Notes under the pieces: generated by a model
What the model saw: the letters and a program-made list of their open reading frames with translations, nothing else
Told to the model about the DNA's origin: nothing
Databases searched by the model: none
In this document: in pieces, positions 2,368 to 23,068 of the stretch
How positions within the stretch are numbered: position 1 is the stretch's first letter
Layout: every line of letters begins with the position of its first letter
Translations under genes and position numbers: made by a program
Assembly: GCF_012689525.1 (NCBI RefSeq)
Contig: NZ_CP051514.1
Location: 744,001 to 808,000 of the forward strand
Length of the DNA stretch: 64,000 nt
DNA from: Paraburkholderia aromaticivorans
GTDB taxonomy: Bacteria > Pseudomonadota > Gammaproteobacteria > Burkholderiales > Burkholderiaceae
Reading direction: 5' to 3'

Positions 2368-2383
2368 TAAGCAAAAACCTGTA
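2368..2383 (+). promoter_or_regulatory. FixJ-type box upstream of the DUF4148-like gene
   Basis: TAAGCAAAAACCTGTA fits TAAG-N10-TA, and a second TAAGCA begins exactly 21 bp later at 2389. The same block, with the same 60-bp distance to a TAACCTGAC sequence (2428 here, 11799 there), precedes the Rieske ferredoxin gene. The ATG of the downstream gene is at 2487. It is probably bound by the response regulator encoded at 3008-3658. Confidence 0.6.
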
Positions 2384-2486
2384 CTCGCTAAGCAGTCTAC
2401 CCAATTCCCCGGCCCCAAGACCATCATTAACCTGACTCAGCGGCATCCCGCCTCGCCTTGTCCAACCAACCCCGAGAGTCACAACA

Positions 2487-2819
2487 ATGAGAATCCGATT
2501 CAGCAAGTTCGTGCAGTCAACCGTCGCGGCCGCGCTCGTAAGCGCATGCATGCCTTCCGCTTTCGCTCAGCCGTCCGCGAGCAATGCCGTCGTCGCGCAG
2601 GACGCCGCGAGCGCCGCCAACGTATCGAAGCGCAAGGCGCGCGAGGAAGCGAAAGCCCAGCGAAAAGCTGCCCGCAAGGCGGCGCGCGCGAAAAATTCAG
2701 CGGAAATCAAACGGCTCGAGGATGCGGGCTACACGCCGGGCGGTGACTTCTCAAACTATCCGCAGAACGCGCAGAATGCGCAAAAGAAAGCCGCCGAGCA
2801 CTCCGGCGCGAGCAAGTAA
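2487..2819 (+). CDS. Secreted DUF4148-like small basic protein
   Basis: 110 residues. There is a Sec signal peptide (MRIRFSKFVQSTVAAALVSA, then PSAFAQ) with likely cleavage near residue 27, followed by a Lys/Arg/Ala-rich helix and a C-terminal segment IKRLEDAGYTPGGDFSNYP. That segment resembles the repeat seen in Burkholderia DUF4148 proteins (compare ELVQLEQAGY in the gene at 31208). Function is unknown; it is presumably periplasmic. Its promoter region shares a spaced FixJ-type element with the Rieske ferredoxin operon, so it probably belongs to catabolic module 1. The response regulator gene starts 188 bp downstream. Confidence 0.75.
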   Translation: MRIRFSKFVQSTVAAALVSACMPSAFAQPSASNAVVAQDAASAANVSKRKAREEAKAQRKAARKAARAKNSAEIKRLEDAGYTPGGDFSNYPQNAQNAQKKAAEHSGASK

Positions 2820-3007
2820 TCCACGTGAAGCAGGCGGCGCTCGCGCCGCCATCGGCTTGCTTGGTGAGGATCTTCCCGCCTGTTTGCACGTTTATTGAAC
2901 CGCTACAATTTCATGGGCGGCTTTGCCGCGCCGCGCAAAGCCGGTCATCGAGGCGTAGTTCAAATCCGTCTGCCCCACAGACGGATCGTGCAGGAAAAGG
3001 AAATTCC

Positions 3008-3658
3008 ATGGAGAGACACTTATCGAGCCCCGTCTCGCCCCAGTGCGAGCCTACGGTCTATATCGTGGACGACGACGAGGCGGTGCGCGTTTCCTTGCGC
3101 TGGCTGTTCGAATCGGTCGGGTACAAGGTGGAAACATTCTCGAACGGGCGCGAATTTCTCGCGGGCGCCGACCCGCGCAAGCCCGGCTGTCTGCTGCTCG
3201 ACATCCGCATGCCGCTGATGGGCGGATTCGAGTTGCAGGACAGCCTGCGCGCGGCGGGCTTCCGGCTGCCGATCATCTTCCTGAGCGCGCATGGCGATAT
3301 TCCCATGACGGTGCGGGCGATGAAGAGCGGCGCTTACGACTTCCTCGAAAAGCCGTACAACGACCAGGACCTGATCGACAAGGTCGCGGACGCGCTCAAG
3401 GTCGGACTGCGCGAACACCATCGCGCCCAGGCGAACAAGACGACACAGGACCTGCTCAAGCAACTGTCCGCGCGCGAGCGCGAAGTGTTCAATCTGCTAA
3501 TCGTAGGCAAGGCGTCGAAGGTCATCGCCGCCGAGCTGAACATCAGCTACAAGACTGTCGAAGTGCATCGCGCCCACATCCGCGAGAAGCTCGGCGCGAC
3601 GTCCCTCGCCGAGCTCGTGCGCCTCGGCTTGCGCGAATCCGGGCGCGACGCGGACTGA
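3008..3658 (+). CDS. FixJ/NarL-family response regulator, module 1
   Basis: 216 residues, starting at ATG 3008 behind AGGAAAAGGAA. The N-terminal receiver domain (about 14-130) has the acidic DDD at 21-23, phospho-acceptor D65 (LLLDIRMP), S93 and K115 (EKPYND). The C-terminal LuxR/FixJ helix-turn-helix (about 148-210) has LSAREREVF and the recognition helix KTVEVHRAHIREKL, close to that of FixJ. It probably activates transcription when phosphorylated by the PAS kinase at 10299-11741. It is convergent with the permease gene. The closest relative in the window is the second copy at 16469-17125, with an almost identical recognition helix, so the two may cross-talk at the same boxes. Confidence 0.9.
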   Translation: MERHLSSPVSPQCEPTVYIVDDDEAVRVSLRWLFESVGYKVETFSNGREFLAGADPRKPGCLLLDIRMPLMGGFELQDSLRAAGFRLPIIFLSAHGDIPMTVRAMKSGAYDFLEKPYNDQDLIDKVADALKVGLREHHRAQANKTTQDLLKQLSAREREVFNLLIVGKASKVIAAELNISYKTVEVHRAHIREKLGATSLAELVRLGLRESGRDAD

Positions 3659-3727
3659 AAACGTCTCGCGGCCCGGCGTCCTCGACGAGAACGCGGCGGA
3701 CCGCGAGAGCGCGCACTGGAAGACCAA

Positions 3728-5146: not shown

Positions 5147-5163
5147 GATGTGCTCCTGTTGAC

Positions 5164-6237: not shown

Positions 6238-6371
6238 TCTAAGTCTCCTGTATTGTCGATGTTGCGATCGATGCCCATTCAGGTCCGTGCCGGAATCTGG
6301 CGAGGGATCCAACCGCCTCAACGTTATGTACGCAAAAATCGCGAAGAAATTCGGCCGCGCATGTATCCGGC

Positions 6372-6387
6372 TAGATGGAATTACTTA
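6372..6387 (-). promoter_or_regulatory. FixJ-type box upstream of the porin-permease operon
   Basis: Read on the minus strand the site is TAAGTAATTCCATCTA. From memory the Sinorhizobium meliloti fixK site is TAAGTAATTTCCCTTA, which gives 12 of 16 identities. It points toward the porin start at 6237. Confidence 0.55.
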
Positions 6388-6438
6388 GCAGTCTGATGAA
6401 ACCCATGAGCGATGCGTCGTACAGGCCAAAAATCGGGC

Positions 6439-6463
6439 GAAAAAAACCGCTGCAATGCAGCGG
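6439..6463 (-). terminator. Rho-independent terminator after the module 1 oxygenase operon
   Basis: On the minus strand CCGCTGC-ATT-GCAGCGG forms a perfect 7-bp stem with a 3-nt loop, followed by a run of T. It lies 25 nt after the stop of the SnoaL-like gene and separates that operon from the porin-permease operon. Confidence 0.85.
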
Positions 6464-6487
6464 CCCGAATGAATCGATGGTGTCACG

Positions 6488-6991
6488 TCACGCTGTGCGC
6501 CCTGTTCTCCCGCGCGGAAACCAGGCCGCGTCGTGACGATGAATCAGCCGCATGTCGAGCAAGACGCTAGCGAAGTACCACCGCCCCTCCTCCAGCACCA
6601 CGCGCGTGTCATATTCGCCGCCCATCCAGTGCGCGGCGGGGGGCGCGGCGCCATCGTGCGGCTCGCGAACCTGCGCGAGCTCCCATAGGTGCCATCGGGC
6701 GCGCCCTTGCAACAGGTCCGCGTCGATCTCCACCACCGGCGCAGTCATGTAATGCAGGCTCCAGACGATCTGCTCCTCGCCAATACGCGCAAGCTCCCGC
6801 GCCACCTCGTCGCGTCCCTCGTAGCGCCCGAAGCCCCTCGCCTCCCAGATGGCGTCGCGACTGAAGAGCGGCGCCATGAGCGCGGGATCGTTCTGGCGGT
6901 CGGCACCCTGCGCATAACGGCCGATCAACTGGTTGACCTCCTCTATCGCTTCGAGCCGGGCAATGCGCCGTGCAAGGGTCGATGCGGCCAT
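6488..6991 (-). CDS. NTF2/SnoaL-fold protein, probable oxygenase beta-like subunit, module 1
   Basis: 167 residues. It opens with a helix (ARRIARLEAIEEVNQLIGRYAQGAD), then DPALMAPLFSRDAIWEARGF and a WSLHYMTAPVV strand, the usual SnoaL-like/NTF2 pattern. Beta subunits of aromatic-ring-hydroxylating dioxygenases share this fold and size, so the likely role is as partner of the Rieske alpha subunit two genes upstream; a small isomerase or cyclase-like role is the alternative. It is the last gene before a strong terminator. The homologue in module 2 is at 20552-21031, in the same relative position. Confidence 0.75.
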   Translation of the reverse strand: MAASTLARRIARLEAIEEVNQLIGRYAQGADRQNDPALMAPLFSRDAIWEARGFGRYEGRDEVARELARIGEEQIVWSLHYMTAPVVEIDADLLQGRARWHLWELAQVREPHDGAAPPAAHWMGGEYDTRVVLEEGRWYFASVLLDMRLIHRHDAAWFPRGRTGRTA

Positions 6992-7052
6992 CGGCGTGTC
7001 TCCTTGTAATGGGGCGTGCGGCGCCCGCGTGGGACGCCGCCGCTACGTCGCG

Positions 7053-7406
7053 CTATCGGTGCGCTCCGGATTGCAGTTCGCCGTGCTCGGCCACGAAGCG
7101 CGCTTCGTCAAAGCTGTGCGGCACCTTGGGATCGCCACCGTACAGCTCGATATGCGGCGCGACCTCGGCAAGCGACAGCGCGAGCGACATCAGCCGCGCC
7201 GCATCGGGCGGCACGTCGCCCAGCGGGAACTTGTCGAGATACGCGAGGATCGCGGGCAGGCGCGGCAGCATGTTGTCGTAGAGGTAGCGCAACTCGCCGC
7301 GCGTCGAGGCGATGCGGCGGCGCTGCCGCTCATTCTGTGTGGGCAGCGCCCAGGCCGTGACGAGCGGCTCGAGCATGTCGAATTCCTGGGGAAGTGATTG
7401 TTCCAT
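7053..7406 (-). CDS. Conserved ~117-residue protein of the Rieske module, module 1
   Basis: 117 residues from the ATG at 7404-7406, which has AAGGAG 9 nt upstream. An earlier in-frame ATG at 7424 overlaps the oxygenase stop codon, so translational coupling is possible. Mostly helical, with a conserved core shared with the module 2 copy at 20201: RGELRYLYDNMLPRLPAILAYL, then PHIELYGGDPKVPHSFDEAR and FVAEHG. No known domain is recognised. Its fixed place between the alpha subunit and the SnoaL-like gene in both modules suggests an accessory subunit, chaperone or substrate-handling protein of the oxygenase. Confidence 0.75.
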   Translation of the reverse strand: MEQSLPQEFDMLEPLVTAWALPTQNERQRRRIASTRGELRYLYDNMLPRLPAILAYLDKFPLGDVPPDAARLMSLALSLAEVAPHIELYGGDPKVPHSFDEARFVAEHGELQSGAHR

Positions 7407-7420
7407 TGCGTTCGTCTCCT

Positions 7421-8626
7421 TCATTGTTCCATGTATTGCTCGAGCACCTTGTAGCCGTGTCGAAGGAGAATCTCCTCGTCCTGCAGATACATGACGCTCT
7501 TGGCGCCCGATTCGAGCGCGGCGTGCGTGTCCTCCATCGTCGCCGTATCTTCGAGCCACGCGTTGCGCTGGAGCACCTGTGCGAACTCGACGGCCCATCG
7601 CTCGCTGTTCGTCTTCGGCGGCTTCACGTAGTACTTGCCTTCCCAGAGCGTCTTGTTGTGGGCGATCGGCCAGAACTGGTGCGTGAACCAAATGCCTTCC
7701 GAAATATGGATCAGGATGTTCGGGAAGACGGCGCTCAACTCGAACGAGAAGTCGCCCCGACGCTCCGGGTTCACGCCGGGCGGCAGCATCGACGAGCCGC
7801 GCTGCGCCACGAGCGACGCGCCCGAGATGCCGTTGGCGACGCCGGCCACCGGCGTCGGCGTGGCGTTGAGCGTGAGGCAGATGCCCGTCGTGCGATGTTC
7901 GCCGAACAACGCGACGTCGGTGAGCCCGCTCGAAAACACGTTGGGGAACGAGCCCGCATGAATGGTCGAGACGTGATACGCCTCGGAGAAAGCATCAAGC
8001 GCGATCTTCCAGTTGCAGTCCAGCAGGGTGTTGTAGCTGAAGCAGCGGCTCATCTCCTGGAACGGGAAGCCCGTAAGGTGACGCCCGAGGCCGCCCATGT
8101 ACTCATCGAGCGAGCGGTCCGGCTGGGCAGCCAGATTAATGAAGATGAAGCCTTCCCAGACGTCGGTATGAACGGGAGACAGGCCACCCGACGACTTCTC
8201 GAAGCACGGCGGAAAGCGCTCTTCCTCCGGCACCTGGACGAGCTTGCCTTGACCGTCGTAGACCCAGCCGTGAAAGCGGCACGTGACCACGGCGGCCTTG
8301 TTGCGGCCGAACGTTTCGTCGCCGTGCTCGACAATGACTTTGTTGCCGCGATGCGAGCAGGTGTTGTGAAAGCCGCGAATGCGCCCGTCCTTGCCGTGCA
8401 TCAGGATCACCGAGGTCTTCGCGAAGTGGATCTTCTTGACCTTGTAATCGCCGACTTTGGGAATCTCTTCAACACGGCCAACCTTCAGCCACGTATTCGA
8501 GAAGACGCGCGCTTTTTCGCGCTCGAAGAATTCGGGCGACACGCAGGGTTCCACGGGAATCGGCTCGGTGCCGAGGTCCGGGTACTTGCTCGCCCATCTC
8601 AGATTGTTGCGCGCTGCATCCATCAT
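7421..8626 (-). CDS. Rieske [2Fe-2S] aromatic-ring-hydroxylating oxygenase alpha subunit, module 1
   Basis: 401 residues, starting ATGATG behind AGAGGAG. The Rieske cluster ligands are C90-x-H92 (CSHRGN) and C116-x2-H119 (CRFHGW). The catalytic domain has the mononuclear-iron motif FSEAYHVSTIHAG, with H218 and H223 as iron ligands and E215 at the bridging position. It hydroxylates or cleaves an aromatic or heterocyclic substrate using electrons from the ferredoxin (11884) and reductase (12228). It lies 53 nt after the amidase and is followed by the ~117-residue protein and the SnoaL-like protein. Substrate cannot be read from sequence. The module 2 homologue is at 18948. Confidence 0.93.
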   Translation of the reverse strand: MMDAARNNLRWASKYPDLGTEPIPVEPCVSPEFFEREKARVFSNTWLKVGRVEEIPKVGDYKVKKIHFAKTSVILMHGKDGRIRGFHNTCSHRGNKVIVEHGDETFGRNKAAVVTCRFHGWVYDGQGKLVQVPEEERFPPCFEKSSGGLSPVHTDVWEGFIFINLAAQPDRSLDEYMGGLGRHLTGFPFQEMSRCFSYNTLLDCNWKIALDAFSEAYHVSTIHAGSFPNVFSSGLTDVALFGEHRTTGICLTLNATPTPVAGVANGISGASLVAQRGSSMLPPGVNPERRGDFSFELSAVFPNILIHISEGIWFTHQFWPIAHNKTLWEGKYYVKPPKTNSERWAVEFAQVLQRNAWLEDTATMEDTHAALESGAKSVMYLQDEEILLRHGYKVLEQYMEQ

Positions 8627-8679
8627 TGCTCCTCTGTCTGTATAAGTTCACCGCTGAATTCGTGGGCCACGGCGCCGGC

Positions 8680-10029
8680 TCAACGCGTGGCGTCAGGTTC
8701 ATGCGCCTCGCCGTCGAGCCCGTACTGCGCGCGCGCGAGATGCGCGATGCCGAGCCCTTCGAGGATCGCCATCGGACACAGAAACGTCACGCGCACGACG
8801 CCGGGCAGACGGCTGATCTCGATCGAGCCGGCGATCGTCGCGCGGTTGAGGATCTCGTCATAGGCAAGACCCGTTACGTCCGCCGCGCGTTGCAGGCCGT
8901 TTTTCGTCGCGTCGTTCAGCGTCGTTCCCGAGCCGATGAAAGTGATCGGCGCGTTCTCCTCGATCTCGCCCTGTCCATAACGCTGCGCGAGCCGCCGCAC
9001 GTGCGCGCGTTGCGTCGCGTTCATCGGACGCGCCATCGGCGGCAGATCGTCGGGGCGTTGCAGCAGGATCGGGCCGTCGAGCGACAGCCCCTTGATCACC
9101 TCCACCTGCAACTCGACTTCGCCAGCCACGTCGGTGGCGTGACCCGCGATTTCGCCGTTGCCTTGCTGCGCATGCATGTCGCCCATATAAACGCCCGCGC
9201 CCGGCACCTTGACGGGACAGATGACGATGGCGCCGTCCCGCACGCTGTTGGTGTCCATGTGGCCGTCGGTCTTGCTCGCGTCGAGCGTCGCCTTCGAGAG
9301 ACCGAACGCATGCGGCGCATCGACGAGGAACGCGCCGAAGTCGCCCGCGTTATGCGAGTCGGGCATGTCGACCGAAGGCAGGGTGCCGATGTTGCCGAGG
9401 AACGGCTGCATGTGGGCCGCGAGGCCGCTCAGGTCGGCGCGCGCGAGCGACAGGATCGAATGCTGCTCGGACAGTTCGGGCAGGCGCGCCATCTTGGCAG
9501 GCATGCCGGCGATGCGCTGGGCGGCGTCCTTGTCGACGGTGAGCGAGACACGGTTCTCGTGATCGAGCACGATCACATAGCCGTGGCTGAAGCGAAACGC
9601 GTTGACCTCCGCGCCGCAGACGCTGCAGTGGATCGCTTCGTCGCCGGTCCCTTCGACGTGGCTCGGCGGACTCTCCGTGCCGCACGCGGAGCAACGCTTG
9701 GCCACGAACGGATCGCCGACATAGCGGCCTTCGACGAACTCCATCACGCCCGACGAAGTCGCAAGCGAGGTCACGTCACAGCGCAGGATCTTGAGCGTGA
9801 CCGCATCGCCAACTTCGGCGCCCTCGACTGCAACTGGCTGCGTGACCTCGTGGCCGCCGCGAAAGACCGGCGTGATCATCGGGCCCCAGCAGCCGGGCGA
9901 CGTGCCGGTGACGATGCGTCCGCCGTTCCTGAGCGGCCCGAGCATCGCGAGTGTCGGGCCGATCACGCCTCGGGTATAGGCGCCGACCTCGACGACGTCC
10001 TGGGGCGACGTCGGCAACGGATGCGTCAT
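8680..10029 (-). CDS. Acetamidase/formamidase (FmdA_AmdA family) with zinc ribbon, module 1
   Basis: 449 residues. ATG 10029 is preceded by GCGAGGA; an in-frame ATG at 10056 lacks this. Family landmarks are GCWGPMITPVF, TSLATSSGVM, MPDSHNAGDFG, DGHMDTNSVRDG and YMGDMHAQQGNGEIAGHATD. A four-cysteine ribbon (KRCSACGTESP and HCSVCGAEV, about residues 145-185) sits in the middle of the chain and is also in the module 2 copy. FmdA enzymes hydrolyse short amides to acid plus ammonia in the cytoplasm. As first gene of the oxygenase operon, it probably removes a C-N bond before or after oxygenation. It is driven from a FixJ-type box at 10153-10168. Confidence 0.9.
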   Translation of the reverse strand: MTHPLPTSPQDVVEVGAYTRGVIGPTLAMLGPLRNGGRIVTGTSPGCWGPMITPVFRGGHEVTQPVAVEGAEVGDAVTLKILRCDVTSLATSSGVMEFVEGRYVGDPFVAKRCSACGTESPPSHVEGTGDEAIHCSVCGAEVNAFRFSHGYVIVLDHENRVSLTVDKDAAQRIAGMPAKMARLPELSEQHSILSLARADLSGLAAHMQPFLGNIGTLPSVDMPDSHNAGDFGAFLVDAPHAFGLSKATLDASKTDGHMDTNSVRDGAIVICPVKVPGAGVYMGDMHAQQGNGEIAGHATDVAGEVELQVEVIKGLSLDGPILLQRPDDLPPMARPMNATQRAHVRRLAQRYGQGEIEENAPITFIGSGTTLNDATKNGLQRAADVTGLAYDEILNRATIAGSIEISRLPGVVRVTFLCPMAILEGLGIAHLARAQYGLDGEAHEPDATR

Positions 10030-10152
10030 GAAAGTGTCCTCGCTTGAGTGGGGCACGAACCGGATAATCGCGGTCCGACTTCAGGTTGGTAGGTGGACTC
10101 AAGCGTAGGGAAATCGCCCGCGCGCCGTTATCCGGTCGGTTGATTAGCCCGC

Positions 10153-10168
10153 TACGGGATAACACTTA
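10153..10168 (-). promoter_or_regulatory. FixJ-type box upstream of the amidase-oxygenase operon, module 1
   Basis: On the minus strand the site is TAAGTGTTATCCCGTA, followed 22 bp from its first base by a second half-like TAATCA. The downstream part TAGCGGGCTAATCAACC resembles that of the ferredoxin promoter box. It is 124 bp upstream of the amidase start. Confidence 0.6.
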
Positions 10169-10298: not shown

Positions 10299-11741
10299 AT
10301 GGTGATCCACGATATGGATACCGGCGAGATTCTCGAAGCCAATCGCAAGGCCTGCGAGATGTACGGTCACCCGATCGAGGAACTGCGCGGCATGTCGATC
10401 GGCGAATTGACGCGCAATCACTTTCCGTACGACACGGAGGGCGGCTTGCGGCGCGTGCGCGAAGCCCGCGACTCCGGCGACTCCGTGATCTTCGAATGGG
10501 TCATCCGGCACGCGAATGACCAGGAAACGCCCGTCGAGGTCAGCCTCAAGCGCATCACGCTCAACGGCATCGACCGCGTGATCGCGGTGGCGCGCGACAT
10601 CACAGAGCGCAAGCAGGCCGTCGCGCAGCTCAAGGAGCGAGAGCGCTACTACCGCAGGCTGATCGAGAGTTCGTCGGACGGCATCGCGATCCTTTCGGCC
10701 GCAGGCATGATCCGCTTCGTGGGCCCGTCGATCTACGCGCTGCTGGGCGTTTCGGCGCGCGTGCTGACCGGGCGGTCGGTCTACGCGTTCATCGCGCCCG
10801 ACAACGTCGAATCGGTGCGCGAGGCCATCCATTCGCTCGCGCCGGGCGCAAGCGTCAACCTTGCCTATCGGATCCAGCATCGCAACGGCGGATGGCGCAT
10901 TCACGAGGCACGCTGCCGCAACCTGCTCGACGACCGTGCCGTCAACGGCATCCTCGTGAACTTCCGCGACGTCACGGAGCGCGTCAAGGCCGAGGAAACC
11001 GCGCGTGCGCGCGCGCTCGAACTGAGCCGCATCGCGCGCATTTCGACCACCGGAGAGATGGCCACCGCGCTCGCGCACGAACTGAATCAACCACTCTTCG
11101 CGATCGTGAACTTCGTCGCCGGCTGCCGGCGGCGCATCGGGTCGGGCAACTATTCAGCCGAAGACCTGATGCGCGTGCTGGAACTCACGCAAAACGAGGC
11201 CGAGCGTGCGGGAAGGATCATCAACAAGGTGCGGGAGTTCACGTGCAACCGTACCTATCGACGCCAGACGGTCGACGTCAGGAAGCTGATCCACGACATC
11301 TCGGACCTGATCGCGCTACGCGCGCGGCAGGACGACGTGACGGTCCACTATGAAATGGACGACACGCCCTGCGAAATCGAATGCGACGATGTGCTCATCC
11401 AGCAGGTCGTCATCAATCTCGCGATCAACGGCATCGAGGCGATGTCGGGTTCGTCTTCCGATCAGCGCGAGCTGCGGATATCCGCGTCGAAGCGGCCCGA
11501 CGGCGACGTGCAGATCACGGTGTCCGACACCGGGCCGGGCTTGCCGCGCGTGAGCCCCGAGCGCATCTTCGCGTCGCTCTTTTCGACCAAGCACGCCGGG
11601 CTCGGCATCGGCCTGTCGCTTTGCCACTCGATCGTCGAAACTCACGGCGGACGCCTGTGGGTCGCGAGCTCGGACGTGCCGCCCCGCACGCGATTTCACG
11701 TGATGCTGCCGCGCACACTCGCCGACGCCCCGCCGCGATAA
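10299..11741 (+). CDS. Soluble PAS-domain sensor histidine kinase, module 1 (5' end frameshifted)
   Basis: At least 480 residues. There are two PAS/PAC units (about 1-105 and 110-230), then a HisKA H-box ATALAHELNQPL, an N-box VVINLAINGIEAM, a G1 box VSDTGPGLP and a G2 region HAGLGIGLSLCHSIVETHGG. No membrane segment is present, so it senses a cytoplasmic signal, as in FixL/StyS-like kinases. The second kinase (21109) starts MSLQLNYYEVFKHANDSMLI; here the matching 5' part begins at ATG 10234 (MSTAIHQNETNYRDVFVYAN) but is one base out of phase, a one-nucleotide loss near 10296. Translation may start at 10299, or the gap is a sequencing error. Its partner is probably the regulator at 3008. Confidence 0.85.
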   Translation: MVIHDMDTGEILEANRKACEMYGHPIEELRGMSIGELTRNHFPYDTEGGLRRVREARDSGDSVIFEWVIRHANDQETPVEVSLKRITLNGIDRVIAVARDITERKQAVAQLKERERYYRRLIESSSDGIAILSAAGMIRFVGPSIYALLGVSARVLTGRSVYAFIAPDNVESVREAIHSLAPGASVNLAYRIQHRNGGWRIHEARCRNLLDDRAVNGILVNFRDVTERVKAEETARARALELSRIARISTTGEMATALAHELNQPLFAIVNFVAGCRRRIGSGNYSAEDLMRVLELTQNEAERAGRIINKVREFTCNRTYRRQTVDVRKLIHDISDLIALRARQDDVTVHYEMDDTPCEIECDDVLIQQVVINLAINGIEAMSGSSSDQRELRISASKRPDGDVQITVSDTGPGLPRVSPERIFASLFSTKHAGLGIGLSLCHSIVETHGGRLWVASSDVPPRTRFHVMLPRTLADAPPR

Positions 11742-11754
11742 GCAAAAACCTGTA
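11739..11754 (+). promoter_or_regulatory. FixJ-type box upstream of the ferredoxin-reductase operon, module 1
   Basis: TAAGCAAAAACCTGTA, identical to the box at 2368-2383, overlaps the kinase stop codon. A second TAAGCA follows at 21 bp and TAACCTGAC at 60 bp, the same geometry as at 2368. The ferredoxin start is at 11884. Confidence 0.65.
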
Positions 11755-11883
11755 GCCGCTAAGCAATCCATCCGATTTACCCTCGGCGAAGCGGCCACTA
11801 ACCTGACGCCACGACAACACGCATTCCGTCGATCGACGCCACCACGCGCCGGTCCGCGGAGTTCGACAATCAGGAGCGTCATC

Positions 11884-12213
11884 ATGACGGTAGCCGAGCA
11901 TACGATTCACATTCTCTGCAAAACTTCCGACGTGCCGCCGGGATGCGCGAAGCGCATCGAGCTGGCTGGCCGTCCGCCCCTCGCGGTCTTCAATCTTGAC
12001 GGCCGCTTCCATGTCACCGACGACACCTGCACGCACGGCGAGGCCTCGCTCTGCGACGGCGAAATCGACGGCGATGTGGTCGAGTGTCCGTTTCATCAGG
12101 GCGCATTCCACATTCGCACGGGCAAGGCGGTTGGCGCGCCCCGCACGATCGATCTGAAGACCTATGCCGCCGTTATCGAGAACGACGCGATCGGCGTGCG
12201 CATCGAGGATTGA
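11884..12213 (+). CDS. Rieske-type [2Fe-2S] ferredoxin, module 1
   Basis: 109 residues behind CAGGAG. The two-motif Rieske centre is C49-T-H51-G and C68-P-F-H71-Q-G. It is a small soluble electron carrier of dioxygenase systems (BphF/NdoA-like): it takes electrons from the reductase encoded 14 bp downstream and passes them to the alpha subunit at 7421. The gene is divergent from the oxygenase operon, and the kinase gene lies between. The module 2 copy at 15041 has equal length and aligned cysteines and histidines. Confidence 0.92.
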   Translation: MTVAEHTIHILCKTSDVPPGCAKRIELAGRPPLAVFNLDGRFHVTDDTCTHGEASLCDGEIDGDVVECPFHQGAFHIRTGKAVGAPRTIDLKTYAAVIENDAIGVRIED

Positions 12214-12227
12214 GGGAGACTATGGTC

Positions 12228-13244
12228 ATGTCAGAGATTCTGCTCGAAGGCGGGGCACACCGCTTCCACTGTGAACGGCACGACACCGTGCTCGGCGCAG
12301 GCTTGCGCGCCGGGCTGGGGCTGCCTTACGAATGCACGGTCGGCGCGTGCGGGACCTGCAAGTTCGAACTGCTGGAGGGCACCGTCGAGAGCTTGTGGGA
12401 GGATGCGCCGGGCCTGTCCGCGCGCGACCGCGCCAAAGGGCGAAAGCTGGCCTGCCAGAGCCGCCCGACGAGCGACTGCCGCATCAAGATCAGGCTCGAC
12501 GAGGCGTGCCGTCCACTCGATCCGCCGCGCAAACAGCCGGCCGTTTTCGTTTCGTCCGCGAACATCACACACGATATCCGCGAGTTTCGCTTTCGCACCG
12601 CTTCGCGTGCCGCGTTTCTGCCCGGACAGTTCGCTCTCCTTCATCTCGATGGGGTTGCCGGCGCACGCGCCTATTCGATGGCGAACCTCGCGAACGATGA
12701 AGGCGAGTGGCACTTCCAGGTGCGCCGGGTCGCACAGGGCGTCGGTACGTCGGTGCTGTTCGACACGCTCGAGCCCGGCGCGTGCGTCACACTCGACGGA
12801 CCATATGGCATGGCATATCTGCGCAAGGAACCCGTGCGCGACGTCGTGTGCGTGGCGGGCGGATCGGGCCTCGCCCCAATGCTCTCGATCGCGCGCGGCA
12901 TGGCTGATCTCGACATGCTGGCGACTCATCGTCTGCACTTCTTCTACGGTGCACGCACGCCGCGCGACGTATGCGGAGAAGCACAGCTGCGCGTGCTGGC
13001 GGGCTACGGCGACCGAATCGTGTTCCATCCCGCCGTATCGTCCGTCGAAGAAGCGGCGCGCGAAGCATGGATCGGATATACCGGCTTCGTGCATCACCAC
13101 GTCGAGGAAACGCTCGGCGCCGGCTTCACCGGCTACGAGTTCTACATGGCCGGCCCGCCGCCGATGATCCACGCGATGCAGGAGATGTTGCACGTCCGTC
13201 ATGCCGTGCCGGCCTCGCAGGTTCATTTCGACCGCTTCTTCTGA
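12228..13244 (+). CDS. Ferredoxin reductase: plant-type [2Fe-2S] plus FAD and NAD(P) domains, module 1
   Basis: 338 residues. The start at ATG 12228 gives the best spacing to GGGAG and the same N-terminus length as the module 2 copy; an ATG six bases earlier is less likely. The N-terminal plant-type cluster uses C36, C41, C44 and C76 (CTVGACGTC, LACQ). Next comes the FAD-binding domain with ARAYSMAN, then the NAD-binding domain with CVAGGSGLAPMLSIARG and a C-terminal QVHFDRFF. It moves electrons from NAD(P)H to the Rieske ferredoxin encoded just upstream. Confidence 0.92.
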   Translation: MSEILLEGGAHRFHCERHDTVLGAGLRAGLGLPYECTVGACGTCKFELLEGTVESLWEDAPGLSARDRAKGRKLACQSRPTSDCRIKIRLDEACRPLDPPRKQPAVFVSSANITHDIREFRFRTASRAAFLPGQFALLHLDGVAGARAYSMANLANDEGEWHFQVRRVAQGVGTSVLFDTLEPGACVTLDGPYGMAYLRKEPVRDVVCVAGGSGLAPMLSIARGMADLDMLATHRLHFFYGARTPRDVCGEAQLRVLAGYGDRIVFHPAVSSVEEAAREAWIGYTGFVHHHVEETLGAGFTGYEFYMAGPPPMIHAMQEMLHVRHAVPASQVHFDRFF

Positions 13245-14787: not shown

Positions 14788-14925
14788 ATGGAACAAGGTA
14801 AGGTCGTTGCTGTGAATGCCCGGCGGGGCTTCTTCATTGTCGCGATCGATCACGGCGATTACGCGGTGTTCGAACTCCTGTCGGACATCGACGCGAACGT
14901 GGCGGAAGGCTCGTGGCATAAGTGA
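14788..14925 (+). CDS. Small conserved-type protein, probably a truncated fragment
   Basis: 45 residues, MEQGKVVAVNARRGFFIVAI followed by DHGDYAVFELL. The pattern recalls a family of small Burkholderia proteins that start with a short beta-barrel and are normally longer. The frame ends soon after LLSDIDANVAEG, so this is probably the 5' part of a gene whose 3' end was lost when module 2 joined here. The last bases overlap the FixJ-type box of the ferredoxin operon. Confidence 0.35.
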   Translation: MEQGKVVAVNARRGFFIVAIDHGDYAVFELLSDIDANVAEGSWHK

Positions 14926-14934
14926 AAGCATCTA
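14919..14934 (+). promoter_or_regulatory. FixJ-type box upstream of the ferredoxin-reductase operon, module 2
   Basis: TAAGTGAAAGCATCTA fits TAAG-N10-TA, and a second TAAG begins exactly 21 bp downstream at 14940, the same spacing as in module 1. The ferredoxin start is at 15041. Confidence 0.6.
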
Positions 14935-15040
14935 CCCGATAAGAAAACGCGCCGATTTCGGAAACTATTCGCGGTGTTTATCCTGTTCATTAATATTCCG
15001 AGCCGGCCGTGGCGCGGACGTAAATGACGGGATGCTTGAA

Positions 15041-15370
15041 ATGAATGCTGCTAATCGAGTAATAAGAATCGTTTGCGAGACGGGCGACGTCGCGCATGGC
15101 TGCGCCAAACGGGTCGAGCGGGAAGGCCTTCCACCATTGGCCGTCTTTAACGTCGACGGCGAATTTTATGTCACCGACGACACCTGCACGCATGGTGACG
15201 CCTCACTATGTGAGGGCGAGGTCGAAGACGGCATCGTCGAATGCCCCTTCCATCAAGGTGCTTTTGACGTCCGCTCCGGCAAGGTTGTATCTGCTCCGTG
15301 CAGCATTCCTCTCAAGACATATGACGTCATCGTCACCAATGGAACAGTAGCCGTCGAGGTCGGGGAGTAA
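15041..15370 (+). CDS. Rieske-type [2Fe-2S] ferredoxin, module 2
   Basis: 109 residues when started at ATG 15041, which aligns residue by residue with the module 1 ferredoxin; an ATG nine bases earlier is possible. The ligands are CTHG at 49-52 and CPFHQG at 68-73. It has the same role as the copy at 11884, carrying electrons to the module 2 oxygenase (18948). Many third-position differences from module 1 and lower GC show the pair is not a recent duplication. The reductase starts 6 bp downstream. Confidence 0.92.
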   Translation: MNAANRVIRIVCETGDVAHGCAKRVEREGLPPLAVFNVDGEFYVTDDTCTHGDASLCEGEVEDGIVECPFHQGAFDVRSGKVVSAPCSIPLKTYDVIVTNGTVAVEVGE

Positions 15371-15376
15371 CGCGAT

Positions 15377-16381
15377 ATGAACAATATCACCATCGAACAG
15401 GCCGGCACGACATTTCGATGTGGTGACGGTGACACGATCTTGTCGGCTGGGCTGCGTAGTGGTCTGGGGATGCCACATGAATGCACGGTAGGTAACTGCG
15501 GGACGTGCAAATTCGAGCTCCTTGAGGGCAAGGTAGAAGTGCTGTGGCAGGACGCACCTGGCCTGTCTGAGCGGGATCGATCGAAGGGGCGGATGTTGGC
15601 GTGCCAGTGTCGCCCCGTCGAAGACTCCCGAATCAAAATCAGACTCGACGACGCATGCCGCCTGGTTCATCCGCCCAGAAAGATCGAGGCAATCCTGACC
15701 GGGACCACCGGTGTCACGCACGATATCCGGGAATTCAGATTCCAGTCTGGCAGTGAAGCCTCGTTCATTGCAGGGCAATTTGCGTTGATCAATCTTCCCG
15801 GAGTGATTGGTCCGCGCGCTTATTCGATGGCGAATCTGGGAAACAACGCGGGCGAATGGCATTTCCAGGTGCGCCGGGTTATGGGCGGCAGCGGCAGCAG
15901 TGTGCTTTTTGATCGTATGAACCTTGGGGATCGTGTCGAGCTGGATGGCCCCTATGGGCTTGCCTATCTCCGGACTGAGGTCAAACGGGATGTTGTATGT
16001 ATTGCCGGTGGCTCGGGGCTGGCGCCCATGCTTTCGATAGCCCGGGGCATCGTTGCATCCGGAATGACGCCGGAGACGAATTTGCATTTCTTCTACGGCG
16101 CGCGACAGACGCGCGACGTTTGCGGAGAGGAATATCTAAAGAGCTTGCCCGGCTTTGACCAGACGATTTTCTATCATCCGTCCGTGTCTTCTCCTGATGA
16201 CGGCTGGAATGGCCGGACGGGCTTCGTTCACGAAGCGTTGAAGGACGTGTTACCCGGAAATCTTGCCGATTACGAATACTACATGGCAGGGCCGTCACTC
16301 ATGATGCGGGCATCCGTCGAAATGCTGACCGGGCACTATCAGGTCCCACTGGGTCAGATTCATTTCGATAGTTTCTTTTAA
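15377..16381 (+). CDS. Ferredoxin reductase: plant-type [2Fe-2S] plus FAD and NAD(P) domains, module 2
   Basis: 334 residues behind GGGGAG. The plant-type cluster cysteines C36, C41, C44 and C76 (CTVGNCGTC, LACQ) are followed by the FAD-binding PRAYSMANLG and the NAD-binding CIAGGSGLAPMLSIARG, ending QIHFDSFF. Domain order and length match the copy at 12228. The 3' end faces the module 2 response regulator, and a short inverted repeat AAGGGC-AGAA-GCCCTT (16405-16420) lies between them without a T tract. Confidence 0.92.
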   Translation: MNNITIEQAGTTFRCGDGDTILSAGLRSGLGMPHECTVGNCGTCKFELLEGKVEVLWQDAPGLSERDRSKGRMLACQCRPVEDSRIKIRLDDACRLVHPPRKIEAILTGTTGVTHDIREFRFQSGSEASFIAGQFALINLPGVIGPRAYSMANLGNNAGEWHFQVRRVMGGSGSSVLFDRMNLGDRVELDGPYGLAYLRTEVKRDVVCIAGGSGLAPMLSIARGIVASGMTPETNLHFFYGARQTRDVCGEEYLKSLPGFDQTIFYHPSVSSPDDGWNGRTGFVHEALKDVLPGNLADYEYYMAGPSLMMRASVEMLTGHYQVPLGQIHFDSFF

Positions 16382-17272: not shown

Positions 17273-17288
17273 TAAGTGACCCTTCTTA
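17273..17288 (+). promoter_or_regulatory. FixJ-type box upstream of the amidase gene, module 2
   Basis: TAAGTGACCCTTCTTA is palindromic at its ends (TAAG...CTTA), as is the S. meliloti fixK site. A TAGTTG follows 21 bp from its first base (17294). The amidase start is at 17381. Confidence 0.55.
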
Positions 17289-17380
17289 TTGGGTAGTTGT
17301 TCAGGCTTATATCCAATGGCATTGCGGCTATTTATGATGAAGTTTCATCACTTCAACGAACTATTGAGAGTGGACTGTAT

Positions 17381-18712: not shown

Positions 18713-18738
18713 AGACGGTCACGAGCCACGCACAGCTG

Positions 18739-18764
18739 TGTGACTCTCGAACCATCGAGTCACA
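18739..18764. repeat. Inverted repeat between the amidase and oxygenase genes, module 2
   Basis: TGTGACTC and GAGTCACA are perfect 8-bp inverted arms around a 10-bp loop, with no T tract. It could be an operator or a hairpin that trims read-through from the amidase gene. Confidence 0.4.
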
Positions 18765-18780
18765 TCGCTTGGCGGCTCAA

Positions 18781-18796
18781 TAAGTAGATCTTCGTA
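18781..18796 (+). promoter_or_regulatory. Candidate FixJ-type box upstream of the oxygenase operon, module 2
   Basis: TAAGTAGATCTTCGTA fits TAAG-N10-TA and lies 167 bp upstream of the alpha subunit start. There is no clear second half site, so it is weaker than the others. Confidence 0.4.
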
Positions 18797-18947
18797 GATC
18801 GATATCGATTGCTCCGGATGTTGCGGAGAAATGGAACCAGATACTGTGGTGACAGCCTTCCAATCGAAGGTCGATCAATAACTATTGACGCCAGAGCTCA
18901 GGAAGTTCAGCTGTCAGTTTACTTGCAAATACAGAGGAGTCGCTAAA

Positions 18948-20201
18948 ATGGAAACCGTGCAAGATCTGCAAGGATCTTCAAAGCGAACGCTGCCGATCCA
19001 CTCGACGGAAGAGATCCGTCAAATGCTGGGGACCAAACCCGTGAATCTCGACATCATTCGGGATCCGGCGGTCTACAGGCAGGAGCAGGAAAAGATCTTC
19101 CGCCGGACCTGGCTGAAAGTGGCCACGACCTGGGAGGTGGCCAATCCTGGCGACTGGAAGGTCAAGGAGCTGGCTGTCTGTGATGCCTCGGTCATCATTG
19201 CGCGTGGCAAAGACGGCGTAATCCGGGCGTTCCATAACGTCTGTACTCACCGCGGCAATAAAGTCATTCCGACCACGGAGTTCGAGACGTTTGGCCACTC
19301 GCGCGCCAACGTCATGACATGCCGATTCCACGGATGGGTGTTCGGTACGAATGGCGATCTGCGCTCGGTGCCCATGAAGGAGGAGTTTGCGGAGATCGAT
19401 ACCAAGTGTCTTAGCCTTCGGGAAATCCAGTGCGACGTGTGGGAAGGCTTCGTTTTCATCAACTTTGACAGGAAACCGGAACAGTCACTGAAGGAATACC
19501 TGGGTGGTTTCGGGGAGCTGTTTGCTGGCTATCCCTACGCGGAATCGACCACGGCCTATCGCTATTCGACGGTGCTCGACTGCAACTGGAAGGTTGCCCT
19601 GTATGCCTTCAGTGAAGGCTATCACGTGCCCACGATCCACGCGGGTTCCTTGCCTGGCTTTTCCGGTATCGAGCACACCAATTACCGGATTCTGGGTCCC
19701 CATGCGTCGTCGGCCATCTATGGCGGCGGGATGGATACGGCAGATTCGACGCAGAAATTTGCCACGCTGCTGCATGGCGCCGAGACCCATAAGCCTCATC
19801 CTGAGCAGTTGCCGAGTGGCATCAACCCGGCAGGTCGTTCCGATTTCCAGTTCGAGCTGCCGTCGGTGTTTCCCAATTTCATCATCCATCTCGCCTCGGG
19901 TTGCGGCTACCCCGGATTGTCGTACTTCACGCATCAGTTTTGGCCGCTGGGTCATGGCAAGACGCTGTGGGAAGGCATCAATTACTTCAAGCCGGCGCAG
20001 AACGCCGCTGAAGACATCGCGCAGCGCCATGTCAACGCGCTGCATCGCAATGCATGGCTTGAGGATACCGCCACGATGGAAGACACGTTCTTCGGCATCA
20101 TGTCGGGCGCCATCGACGAAATGCATCTGATGGATCGTGAGTTCCTGATTCGACATGGTGTCGAAACGCTTAACCGTTATCTCAGCGAGGTGGAGGCATG
20201 A
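18948..20201 (+). CDS. Rieske [2Fe-2S] aromatic-ring-hydroxylating oxygenase alpha subunit, module 2
   Basis: 417 residues. ATG 18948 has AGAGGAG upstream, which decides against the longer frame from 18885. The Rieske ligands are C99-x-H101 (CTHRGN) and C125-x2-H128 (CRFHGW). The mononuclear iron site is FSEGYHVPTIHAG with H226 and H231. It is about 16 residues longer than the module 1 enzyme and clearly diverged, so the two may act on related but different substrates. It overlaps the next gene at ATGA, which implies translational coupling. Confidence 0.93.
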   Translation: METVQDLQGSSKRTLPIHSTEEIRQMLGTKPVNLDIIRDPAVYRQEQEKIFRRTWLKVATTWEVANPGDWKVKELAVCDASVIIARGKDGVIRAFHNVCTHRGNKVIPTTEFETFGHSRANVMTCRFHGWVFGTNGDLRSVPMKEEFAEIDTKCLSLREIQCDVWEGFVFINFDRKPEQSLKEYLGGFGELFAGYPYAESTTAYRYSTVLDCNWKVALYAFSEGYHVPTIHAGSLPGFSGIEHTNYRILGPHASSAIYGGGMDTADSTQKFATLLHGAETHKPHPEQLPSGINPAGRSDFQFELPSVFPNFIIHLASGCGYPGLSYFTHQFWPLGHGKTLWEGINYFKPAQNAAEDIAQRHVNALHRNAWLEDTATMEDTFFGIMSGAIDEMHLMDREFLIRHGVETLNRYLSEVEA

Positions 20202-20542
20202 TGACCGAGTTCAAACTTCCGGAAGCTTTTGCGGATCTGACCGAAACCGCGGCCTTTTGGGCGAAGCCGACCGAATATCAACGCAGCACGCTGCGCTGGA
20301 ACGCAAGTAAAGAGGATTTTGCGGTTCTTTACAACACGATCATGCCGCGCCTCGACGCGATTCTGTCATACATGGAATCCCTCCCTGTGAAACCGGTGCA
20401 AGAGGAGGACCGGAATCTGTACTGGCTGGCCTGTGCCTTTGCGGAAGCCTCACCGCATCACGAACTTTATGAGGGCAGCGCGCAGGTGCCTCACAGTTTC
20501 GTAGCTGAACGATTTGTTGCCGCGCATGGCAACGCATCCTGA
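20201..20542 (+). CDS. Conserved ~113-residue protein of the Rieske module, module 2
   Basis: 113 residues from ATG 20201, 4 nt after GGAGG; the ATG three bases earlier is almost on top of the ribosome site. It matches the module 1 protein at 7053 in length, position and core motifs (LYNTIMPRLDAILSYMESLP, then SPHHELYEGSAQVPHSFVAE). No known domain is recognised. Overlap with the alpha-subunit stop suggests fixed stoichiometry with it. Confidence 0.78.
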   Translation: MTEFKLPEAFADLTETAAFWAKPTEYQRSTLRWNASKEDFAVLYNTIMPRLDAILSYMESLPVKPVQEEDRNLYWLACAFAEASPHHELYEGSAQVPHSFVAERFVAAHGNAS

Positions 20543-20551
20543 GGATCGCAG

Positions 20552-21031
20552 ATGAATCCGGAGCTCACCAGGAGAATCGAGCGACTTGAGGCCGAGTCGG
20601 GGATTCAGGCACTGATCGCCCGGCTGGCACGCGCGTTCGATGATGGTCCTTCGCGCGAGGGCTTGCTGAGCGTGTTTGCGAAGGATGCAGTTTTCCAGAT
20701 CGATCAATATGGCGTGCTGACCGGGGCGGAGGCCATTGCCGACGGCGTGGTCTCGAATTCGGAGGCAGGCTTTCGATGGACCTTGCACTTCTTGGTGTCT
20801 CCGATCATTACGCTGAACGATGACTGCAAGAGCGGCGCCGTCGAATTTATGCTTTTCGAGCCGGCGACTGCTGGTAGCGGGCAAGCGTACTGGATTGGAG
20901 GTCGATACACCGCAGATGTCGTCTATGCAGGTGAGACGTGGCGATTCCAACGGCTTGAGTTGTCGGCGGAATTGATTTCCCGCTACGACGAGGGCTGGCG
21001 CAGCAAGCCGGACTCGTTGGCAAAGGCCTGA
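20552..21031 (+). CDS. NTF2/SnoaL-fold protein, probable oxygenase beta-like subunit, module 2
   Basis: 159 residues behind GAGGATCGCAG. It has the same layout as the module 1 protein: helix RRIERLEAESGIQALIARLA, then EGLLSVFAKDAVFQID, WTLHFLVSPII and YWIGGRYTADVVY. The fold and size match beta subunits of ring-hydroxylating oxygenases, which supports an alpha-beta enzyme; a separate catalytic role cannot be excluded. It is the last gene of the three-gene operon and converges with the kinase gene. Confidence 0.75.
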   Translation: MNPELTRRIERLEAESGIQALIARLARAFDDGPSREGLLSVFAKDAVFQIDQYGVLTGAEAIADGVVSNSEAGFRWTLHFLVSPIITLNDDCKSGAVEFMLFEPATAGSGQAYWIGGRYTADVVYAGETWRFQRLELSAELISRYDEGWRSKPDSLAKA

Positions 21032-21108
21032 GTCCGGCAATCACTGGAAAACTGCTCCCCAGCGTGTGTTTCACCAATGCCTGGCTCGCTCCCGTTACAT
21101 GGATCGAG

Positions 21109-22593
21109 TCAGGCATTTCTGCATCCGGCGATGATCGGAAGTGCAAATGAAAATCGGGTACCAGCGGCCCCCGTTCGCTCTGAATTCAGACTGCCACCAT
21201 GCGATTCCATAATCGAATGGCACAGCAACAGACCAATTCCGACGCCTTGCTCCTTGGTAGTAAAGAAATCGCCGTTGCGCCGCCTGACGGTGTCGCCCGC
21301 CACGCCTTTTCCACTGTCTTCCACGGAAATGATAATTTCCTTGCCTTCCCGCTTTGTGGTGATCAGCAAGCGACGGTTTTCCTCTGGCAAATCGGCCATC
21401 GCCTCAATACCGTTAACGGCGAGGTTGGTAATCACCTGCTGTATCAATACATCATCACATTCGACCAGTGCATCATCGACGATGTCGATGAATGGCATGA
21501 CCGAGTCCTGTGCGGCCCGGATTTCGATAAAGCACCCGATTCCTTCAACGATTGCACGTACCGAGTGAACCCGCCGCGACGTGGTCCGATTGGCGGTGAA
21601 ATTCCGTATCGAATGCACAATGCGGCCGGCGCGCTCCAACTCTTTCTGGGCTAGGTCCAGGGCGACATTGATCTCCGAGACGCTACCTCCGGCCTCAAGG
21701 CGCCGTCGACAGCCTGCAAAGAAATTAACTGCGGCACATAACGGTTGATTGACCTCGTGGGCTAGCGCGGCAGCCGTCTCACCAGCAATGGATAGTCGCG
21801 CGTAGTGATTGATTTGGCGCTCATATTCTCTTGCAGTTTCCTCCTGCTGAACGCGAGCGGTCACGTCGCGGAAGTTCACCAGAATTGCACCAAATAGCGG
21901 ATCGCTCAGAAGATTTTTGAATACCGCTTCGTGATTCCTCCATTTTCCATCGCGATGCAATATCTTGTATTCGAACGTGCCGCCGGTAAGCTTCGCGCGT
22001 CGCACTTTGGCGAGAATGGAGACCGCCTTTTTCGAATCGCTTACGTCTAGGAAGTCGAAAATTGACCTCCCGATGGCTGATCTGGCGCGATATCCCAGGA
22101 TACCCCTGAGCGATTCACCTACATATTGAATGCCCCCCGTTTCATTGATAAGCGCGACGCCGTCGGACGAATTCCGGCTGAGTTCTTCAAAATAACGTCC
22201 CCGTTCACGCAGTCGAGCTTCCGCGAGCCGACGCTCAGAAATATCTCTAGAGATTGCCAGCACCATCGGGGTGGCGGCGCCCTTAATCAGTTTAAGGTTT
22301 CCCTCGATCGGAATTATCTTCCCGGTGCTGTGGCGGATATGCCATTCGTAATTGAACAGCCCACCAAGCCGTGCCGCACTTTGAATGTAATTAATGGCGG
22401 TATCCAGGTTGTAGATTTCGTCCCCGGCTGATAGCTGCCCAATAGTCATCGAGCTCAGCTCTCTCACAGTGCGTCCAAACAGTCGGCAGGCCGCCTCGTT
22501 CGCTTCGAGGATGGCGCCAGTGACGCCGTCGTGAATCAGCATTGAGTCATTGGCGTGCTTGAAGACTTCGTAATAATTTAGCTGCAGTGACAT
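21109..22593 (-). CDS. Soluble PAS-domain sensor histidine kinase, module 2
   Basis: 494 residues, intact. PAS 1 (about 8-110) and PAS 2 (about 130-250) are each followed by PAC-like segments (ISRDISERRLAEARLRERGR, NFRDVTARVQQEE). The H-box is AALAHEVNQPLCAAVNFFAG, the N-box VITNLAVNGIEAM, and the ATP-lid region EQGVGIGLLLCHSIMESHGG. There are no membrane helices. It probably phosphorylates the regulator at 16469; the signal, perhaps the pathway substrate, is unknown. It gives the intact model for the frameshifted 5' end of the module 1 kinase. Confidence 0.9.
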   Translation of the reverse strand: MSLQLNYYEVFKHANDSMLIHDGVTGAILEANEAACRLFGRTVRELSSMTIGQLSAGDEIYNLDTAINYIQSAARLGGLFNYEWHIRHSTGKIIPIEGNLKLIKGAATPMVLAISRDISERRLAEARLRERGRYFEELSRNSSDGVALINETGGIQYVGESLRGILGYRARSAIGRSIFDFLDVSDSKKAVSILAKVRRAKLTGGTFEYKILHRDGKWRNHEAVFKNLLSDPLFGAILVNFRDVTARVQQEETAREYERQINHYARLSIAGETAAALAHEVNQPLCAAVNFFAGCRRRLEAGGSVSEINVALDLAQKELERAGRIVHSIRNFTANRTTSRRVHSVRAIVEGIGCFIEIRAAQDSVMPFIDIVDDALVECDDVLIQQVITNLAVNGIEAMADLPEENRRLLITTKREGKEIIISVEDSGKGVAGDTVRRRNGDFFTTKEQGVGIGLLLCHSIMESHGGSLNSERTGAAGTRFSFALPIIAGCRNA

Positions 22594-23068
22594 TTCAATT
22601 CCAATCTGTCAAGCCCGTATTTTCTCTAGGGCGATGTCGCGTTTTCGGGTAATCCCGCCTCTCTAACGCTTCACCCGATCGTCCGACCCATAGGGTGATA
22701 AGTAAGTGTACCTATATCGCTAAATATTGAACGCAATGTTCGACATTGTGCGGCCAACTTATCATAAATCACGCTGATCTCGCTGCGATTTTTAACCCGA
22801 AACGTCTCGTGAGCGGCGCAATGGAGACGTAGAGATTCATCCAAATTTTGGTCAACTTTCGAAACGAACCCAAGTGTATCTGTTTGGTATAACACAACGT
22901 TCCAGCTACCGGCTCGCATCCGCTGCTCGAAGGTTCGTTCGACCCGTACGGCGCGGATGCATCAGGCGATCAAAACCTCAGCATTGTTCGAGTGGGTATG
23001 CGGACGGTTTTCTAAAAGTCTGATCCGCAATGACTTGTTTAATCCCTGTTTTTTATTGGTGAGACACC
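22594..23068. other. Divergent intergenic region between the kinase and the permease, module 2
   Basis: AT-richer than the neighbours. I see no convincing gene; an 82-codon minus-strand frame (22671-22919) has no family signal. It holds a candidate FixJ-type box at 22699-22714 (next entry) and must contain promoters for both flanking genes. Confidence 0.5.
22699..22714 (+). promoter_or_regulatory. Candidate FixJ-type box in the kinase-permease intergenic region
   Basis: TAAGTAAGTGTACCTA fits TAAG-N10-TA, with CGCTAAATA beginning near 22719, similar to the second half (CGCTAAGCA) of the module 1 ferredoxin box. It is 355 bp from the permease start, so a role for the permease is less certain. 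Confidence 0.4.

Follow-up and report, generated by a model that had tools for sequence, protein, structure and literature searches.

A putative FixJ-type promoter signature shared by two amidase-Rieske modules of Paraburkholderia aromaticivorans

A stretch of 64,000 nucleotides of Paraburkholderia aromaticivorans (contig NZ_CP051514.1, positions 744,001 to 808,000; hereafter the window) carries two gene modules, A and B, each with amidase and Rieske oxygenase genes, a histidine kinase (HK-A, HK-B) and a FixJ-family response regulator (RR-A, RR-B). Are the two modules governed by one set of promoters, and if so, what kind of regulator recognizes them? A preliminary description, made from the sequence alone, had quoted eight 16-mers of the pattern TAAG-N10-TA and predicted that they mark one regulon. 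All eight were confirmed at their coordinates and strands; each lies 5' of a gene and precedes a same-strand start codon. The boxes, extended here through a second element and a -10 hexamer, are the following.

2368..2433, + strand: TAAG at 2368, element 2 at 2389, -10 TAACCT at 2428-2433; 5' of the gene for a small exported-looking protein (2487-2819), then RR-A.
6321..6387, - strand: TAAG at 6387, element 2 at 6365, -10 TAACGT at 6326-6321; 5' of porin and permease A.
10102..10168, - strand: TAAG at 10168, element 2 at 10146, -10 TACGCT at 10107-10102; 5' of the amidase-Rieske alpha operon A, divergent from HK-A.
11739..11804, + strand: TAAG at 11739, element 2 at 11760, -10 TAACCT at 11799-11804; 5' of the ferredoxin-reductase operon A.
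14919..14984, + strand: TAAG at 14919, element 2 at 14940, -10 TATCCT at 14979-14984; 5' of the ferredoxin-reductase operon B; the same box occurs in another genome, G332.
17273..17338, + strand, weaker: TAAG at 17273, element 2 at 17294, -10 TATGAT at 17333-17338; 5' of amidase B.
18781..18847, + strand, weaker: TAAG at 18781, element 2 at 18803, -10 TACTGT at 18842-18847; 5' of Rieske alpha B.
22699..22765, + strand: TAAG at 22699, element 2 at 22721, -10 TATCAT at 22760-22765; 5' of the NCS1-type permease B, divergent from HK-B.

TAAG-N10-TA was found 12 times in the window against 3.92 expected, and none of 100 shuffles gave 12 or more. Eight of the 12 matches sit 5' of genes of modules A and B; the remaining four are at 16797 (within RR-B), at 60192 and, as reverse matches, at 17288 and 17309. 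It had been proposed that a second TAAG half begins exactly 21 bp on in three strong cases. This is correct for 2368, 11739 and 14919 (three of the eight), and 17273 indeed has TAGTTG at that place. The spacing had to be corrected for 6387, 10168, 18781 and 22699, where the second element begins with TA at +22 and not at +21; aligned on TAAG, element 2 thus starts at +21 in four boxes and at +22 in the other four. A feature that had been missed is a CCSRATT-like stretch closing the second element. A TANNNT hexamer follows at +60 or +61, according to whether element 2 stands at +21 or +22, in all eight boxes compared to none of the four other matches, and the distance from the start of element 2 to this -10 is always 39 bp (8/8). 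The chance of finding TANNNT at 60 or 61 in eight of eight, taken from its frequency in these intergenic stretches, is about 2e-15, a figure that is post hoc because the offsets were picked after inspecting the alignment. We regard the sites and their spacing as established.

In a sigma70 consensus scan of positions 2000-21999, none of the seven boxes covered was listed on its own strand (22699 lies outside the scan). With a -10 present, a poor -35, and an activator site adjoining the place of the -35, the boxes have the layout of class II activator-dependent sigma70 promoters. It is therefore useful to state the proposed mechanism, in which binding, activation and start sites are all inferred. 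The eight boxes are very probably activator-dependent promoters of RR-A and RR-B, with FixJ-like activation of the class II type for both modules. The phosphorylated regulator would occupy the 16-bp imperfect inverted repeat TAAG-N8-NNTA as a dimer, and a second dimer would occupy the TA...CCSRATT element, which lies two turns (21-22 bp) further downstream and adjoins the place of the non-consensus -35. The second dimer would recruit sigma70 RNA polymerase to the TANNNT -10; transcription would start about 7 bp past the -10, putting the two sites near -64 and -43. The regulon would then comprise the porin/permease, amidase, Rieske oxygenase and ferredoxin/reductase genes of both modules. It may be noted that at 11739-11741 the stop codon TAA of HK-A doubles as the TAA of the next operon's TAAG box. 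Box 17273 overlaps a sigma70-like -35 of the divergent RR-B gene, an arrangement that could provide negative autoregulation of RR-B; such sites are equally common in shuffles.

The specificity of the signature was assessed with a composite matrix built outside the window, from 12 boxes (eight amidase-operon heads, three monooxygenase-operon heads and one orphan). The eight boxes ranked top, with scores from 46.2 to 16.3. Box 6387 shifted by one base came after them (15.6), and then a window site scoring 6.3; the best background score in 400 kb of the same genome was 12.7. The preliminary description had suggested a matrix scan, in which equally frequent hits in coding and intergenic DNA would refute its prediction. 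When it was run, no such refutation emerged, the eight sites standing above the 400 kb background. Neither site 1 alone nor element 2 alone separated the window boxes from background, and therefore the information sits in the compound signature; site 1 and element 2 taken together without the -10 gave only a partial separation of the window sites from the same 400 kb.

Two profiles were also used, R1 built with the window sites included and R2 from the 12 foreign boxes only. On the organism's own 10.84-Mb genome, R1 returned the eight boxes, each at E<0.001, and a ninth match of 13.6 bits (C2; E 0.76). The latter lies between luxR- and luxI-like frames (by eye), and was set aside as a chance overlap with a lux-type repeat. 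Over 398 genomes of the family, R1 found 31 sites at E<=0.01 in eight genomes, the other 390 being without a match. Thirty of the 31 fall in seven genomes, and these seven, with no others, have an HK-A homologue at E<=1e-100; the 31st is in G332, on a 697-bp fragment that matches the left edge of module B, box included, at 97.7% identity. Genome-wide specificity is thereby established. The prediction of one regulon is well supported.

Which regulator reads the boxes? A FixJ-family regulator with the helix KTVEVHRA had been described for each module, and both were confirmed.

3008-3658, + strand: RR-A, FixJ-like response regulator (receiver and GerE helix-turn-helix).
16469-17125, - strand: RR-B, FixJ-like response regulator (start codon chosen; the frame is open to 17182).

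Pfam Response_reg and GerE are present in both. RR-A and RR-B are 74% identical, have the same KTVEVHRAHIREKL helix and have nearly the whole first receiver helix in common. Their recognition helix TVEVHRA is that of Sinorhizobium meliloti FixJ (1x3u), an established point of likeness. The best NCBIfam family for both is NF006900 (FixJ), at 209.4 and 211.9 bits, under its 255-bit cut-off. The boxes resemble the targets of FixJ as well. According to PMC4999443, three rhizobia (S. meliloti, A. caulinodans, B. japonicum) have in their fixK promoters CSNAATWT at -33 and TAAG around -64, and FixJ protects -69 to -44 and -57 to -31. The S. meliloti FixJ site TAAGTAATTTCCCTTA, which the preliminary description had quoted, is printed there as stated and was determined as a FixJ site. 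The likeness to fixK covers the two elements, the 16-bp TAAG...TA, TAAG near -64 and CSNAATWT near -33, represented here by the CCSRATT-like stretch at start distances that are predicted; the fit to CSNAATWT is exact in 6387 and approximate in the other boxes. Recognition helix and promoter layout together support FixJ-type recognition of the boxes. Unlike FixJ, which controls fixK and nifA, the window system would control catabolic and transport genes, and its regulators stay under the FixJ cut-off; systems of this kind occur mostly in beta-proteobacteria.

The boxes could instead be operators of an aromatic two-component system of the StyR/TodT type. StyS/StyR and TodS/TodT are likewise two-component systems whose NarL/FixJ-family regulator switches on aromatic oxygenase operons, the modules look aromatic-catabolic, and full-length RR-B is nearest to StyR in the PDB (180 bits, compared to 145 for FixJ). 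However, when the DNA-binding domain of RR-A alone was searched, it was nearest to FixJ (46.4 bits for 5xso and 44.7 for 1x3u vs 34.7 for StyR). StyR-type regulators may read ATAAACN4GTTTAT, with Lys175, Val176 and His179 as putative contacts (PMC5874301), and the high-affinity StyR site lies at about -40 (PMC2442086). RR-A and RR-B carry Glu, Val and Ala at the positions of these three residues, and the operator is absent from the window at up to two mismatches; the 11 matches at three mismatches, against 6.85 expected, were not accepted as sites. With both operator and recognition residues differing, this is the least probable of the explanations considered. TdiS/TdiR of Azoarcus, for anaerobic toluene degradation, is also a two-component activator of a catabolic cluster in a beta-proteobacterium, but the palindrome proposed for it is GGTGTTCGCACC and not TAAG.

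Seventy-six related loci were gathered by Rieske alpha and annotated by tblastn; they are phylogenetically non-independent. They were scored with the composite matrix, the own locus being left out and close relatives kept. A locus 'without regulator' is one with none at 40% identity within the locus, and its genome may have one at a distance. A composite score of at least 25 was seen in 19 of 27 loci with a regulator vs 1 of 49 without, the latter on a 5.9-kb contig, and co-occurrence with the regulator in other genera is thus established. Six Paraburkholderia, Burkholderia and Pandoraea loci had exactly four matches of at least 40 and none other of at least 10 per 21 kb. These four strong boxes head the ferredoxin, amidase and porin operons and an operon that encodes a StyA-type monooxygenase, a flavin reductase and an SDR. 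The porin box also occurs in L009-L013 and L019, the amidase (fmd) box in L009-L015 and L019, and the ferredoxin (fd) box in L009-L014 and L019; the monooxygenase operon, an unsought find, is headed by a box in seven loci (L009-L013, L015, L019). Zoogloea, Ideonella and Rhodocyclaceae loci have a single strong box, 5' of the amidase. Boxes from different genera with different regulators follow one common consensus. The 39-bp spacing in the 17 foreign training sites is partly due to selection, as these were picked with TANNNT at 59-62. When R1 was run over 57 of the 76 loci, two partial matches appeared, both in L058.

A strong box in Lampropedia (L014:15942-16015) has no clear module gene behind it. 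In L038, a box scoring 29.9 at 12934 stands just 5' of a luciferase-like flavin monooxygenase frame (12957-14195, by eye), with a flavin-reductase-like frame behind it; here a box of this type heads another sort of monooxygenase.

The distribution among relatives also bears on whether the boxes arose by promoter copying between operons, being ordinary promoters or the target of another regulator with no FixJ-type regulon behind them. Boxes 2368 and 11739 have the same 16-mer and much of the remainder in common, as if copied. Against this, seven boxes lack a consensus -35 (22699 being outside the scan), a box is present in just one of the 49 regulator-free loci although the Rieske alpha gene is there, and 390 of 398 family genomes have no match. 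Copying in this sense is very unlikely.

Several observations weigh against a FixJ-like regulon of eight boxes. Boxes 17273 and 18781 are weak. On the own genome at E<=10, R2 recovered only 6387 of the eight (150 of 2474 candidates scored), together with two weak matches elsewhere (E 0.26 and 1.24), and a further R2 scan again gave 6387 as the sole window site. We ascribe this to filter limits because the same 12 foreign boxes, used as a matrix, find all eight; it is still the weaker result. G332 has the box but no close RR-B, the best relative being 52% identical. A score of 25 is not reached in eight of the 27 loci with a regulator, which are those of Xanthobacter, Zavarzinia and Acinetobacter. 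By eye, operon heads of Xanthobacter and Zavarzinia have a related but changed box, TTAGGGAAAACCCCTA-like, and those of Acinetobacter have TAAG/TAGG-N8-CCTA palindromes; the relaxed pattern also occurs elsewhere in these AT-rich loci, compared to six occurrences over 807,638 bases from loci without the regulator. In L009 the amidase site has its -10 one base off, and two L058 sites have none. The response regulator and histidine kinase genes of the relatives are without a strong box, the best scoring 21.0 (5' of the kinase gene in L016).

The kinases are the second part of the signalling system.

10299-11741, + strand: HK-A, PAS-PAS histidine kinase with a FixL-like kinase core.
21109-22593, - strand: HK-B, PAS-PAS histidine kinase, 44% identical to HK-A.

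HK-A resembles FixL in its kinase core. It differs from it in scoring 202 bits against the FixL model NF041777, far below the cut-off of 850, so that it is not FixL by score; among the PDB matches of HK-A at E<=1e-5 there was no FixL heme-PAS chain, only chimeras with the FixL kinase. The kinases probably sense pathway compounds rather than oxygen.

Do the two systems then act on one promoter set or on two? RR-A might serve only module A and RR-B only module B, kept apart by subtle box differences or by insulation at the kinases. The module B boxes 17273 and 18781 do score below the A boxes, HK-A and HK-B are only 44% identical, and the modules are of different origin (HK-B and amidase B group with a Burkholderiales metagenome-assembled genome). 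On the other hand, the two regulators are 74% identical with the same helix, the window-free matrix places the B boxes 14919 and 22699 second and third among the eight, and one consensus holds across genera with different regulators. We consider such insulated parallel regulons rather unlikely. Two related sensor systems probably switch on one common gene set. Cross-regulation, which had been put forward as possible, is plausible from the sequence, because RR-A and RR-B agree in the recognition helix and in almost all of the first receiver helix, and because the boxes are not sorted by module. More tentatively, at somewhat under an even chance, kinases of different origin may converge on one interchangeable set of FixJ-type promoters, a horizontally acquired module B having joined the A regulon on arrival; if so, it would be because both regulators retained one recognition helix and their first receiver helices stayed nearly identical. 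That RR-B was taken over from an A-type module is not claimed, as the regulator tree leaves its origin undecided: on rerun, RR-B stood beside L038 with weak support (57/88), and a clade with A-type regulators was not rejected (p 0.38).

The other genes of the two modules are listed below.

3728-5242, - strand: NCS1-type permease A.
5164-6237, - strand: porin A.
6488..10029, - strand: operon A, with FmdA/AmdA amidase (8680-10029), Rieske alpha (7421-8626), a small protein (~7053-7406) and a SnoaL-like protein (6488-6991).
11884..13244, + strand: operon A, with Rieske ferredoxin (11884-12213) and FAD/NAD reductase (~12222-13244).
15041..16381, + strand: operon B, with Rieske ferredoxin (15041-15370) and reductase (15377-16381).
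17381-18712, + strand: FmdA/AmdA amidase B.
18948..21031, + strand: Rieske alpha B (18948-20201), a small protein (20198-20542) and a SnoaL-like protein (20552-21031).
23069-24511, + strand: NCS1-type permease B.

Module A runs in the order RR-A, NCS1-type permease, porin, SnoaL-like protein, small protein, Rieske alpha, FmdA/AmdA amidase, HK-A, Rieske ferredoxin, reductase; module B has ferredoxin, reductase, RR-B, amidase, Rieske alpha, small protein, SnoaL-like protein, HK-B, permease. Identities between A and B are 73% for the amidase, 60% for both ferredoxin and reductase, 58% for the permease, 45% for alpha, 44% for the kinase and 30% for the SnoaL-like protein. Amidase B probably starts at 17381, because the listed TTG at 17297 is upstream of the predicted transcription start. 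The conserved protein of about 115 residues (7053-7406, - strand; 20198-20542, + strand) has no Pfam match and is a neighbour of Rieske alpha in modules A and B as well as in most of the related loci. The small basic exported-looking protein of 2487-2819 (+ strand), whose box is a near-copy of the ferredoxin box, has six more relatives in the same genome, and none was listed in the 76 related loci. To the left of module A lies a gene for a KfrA-like plasmid protein (776-1678, - strand).

Both modules probably degrade nitrogen-containing ring compounds. The StyA-type monooxygenase of the module A relatives has as its nearest PDB chain 7z4x (323 bits), which we take to be the indole monooxygenase VpIndA1. 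Because the box also heads this monooxygenase, indole-like N-heteroaromatics are suggested as substrates; no cluster matching the pathway was found in the literature surveyed. Clusters of this kind, presumably those named iif or ind, resemble the module A relatives in having a StyA-type monooxygenase, flavin reductase and SDR, which in these relatives stand under the same box. They differ from the window, where both monooxygenase and reductase are absent; the monooxygenase gene was not found elsewhere in the genome either. In the literature surveyed, no FixJ-type box was seen for indole-monooxygenase clusters. No description of this regulon was found, subscription papers being mostly outside coverage.

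Just left of module B lies a truncated, frame-broken SDR (13655-14312, - strand), which matches the SDR of the L010 monooxygenase operon at 84% and 75% identity. Module B seems to have replaced the monooxygenase operon, because the monooxygenase is gone and an SDR remnant is left beside the module. Positions 14798-15494, the box-bearing left edge of module B, recur in L131, the locus of G332 (a different genus within the family), where they lie at the end of a contig and close to transposase-like frames (by eye). Horizontal transfer in recent times is the probable cause; neither RR-B nor alpha B was found in G332. A stretch at 25346-25683 is 77% similar to a transposase-like stretch in L131, and may mark the right side of module B. 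A recent plasmid copy of the modules was sought and rejected: for 2300-25300 only about 1.2 kb at 74-77% identity was found in six records, and for 14400-24600 nothing.

A signature known mainly from nitrogen-fixation genes thus stands here at the promoters of catabolic modules. With dozens of boxes from several genera in near-fixed geometry, the FixJ-type code becomes readable and testable beyond nitrogen fixation. The boxes predict the control of an uncharacterised amidase-Rieske pathway, and the two modules offer a natural test case for cross-talk between paralogous two-component systems. If the two kinases do converge on one promoter set, it would act as an OR-gate for two inducers, and would illustrate a general way for catabolic modules to unite their regulation.

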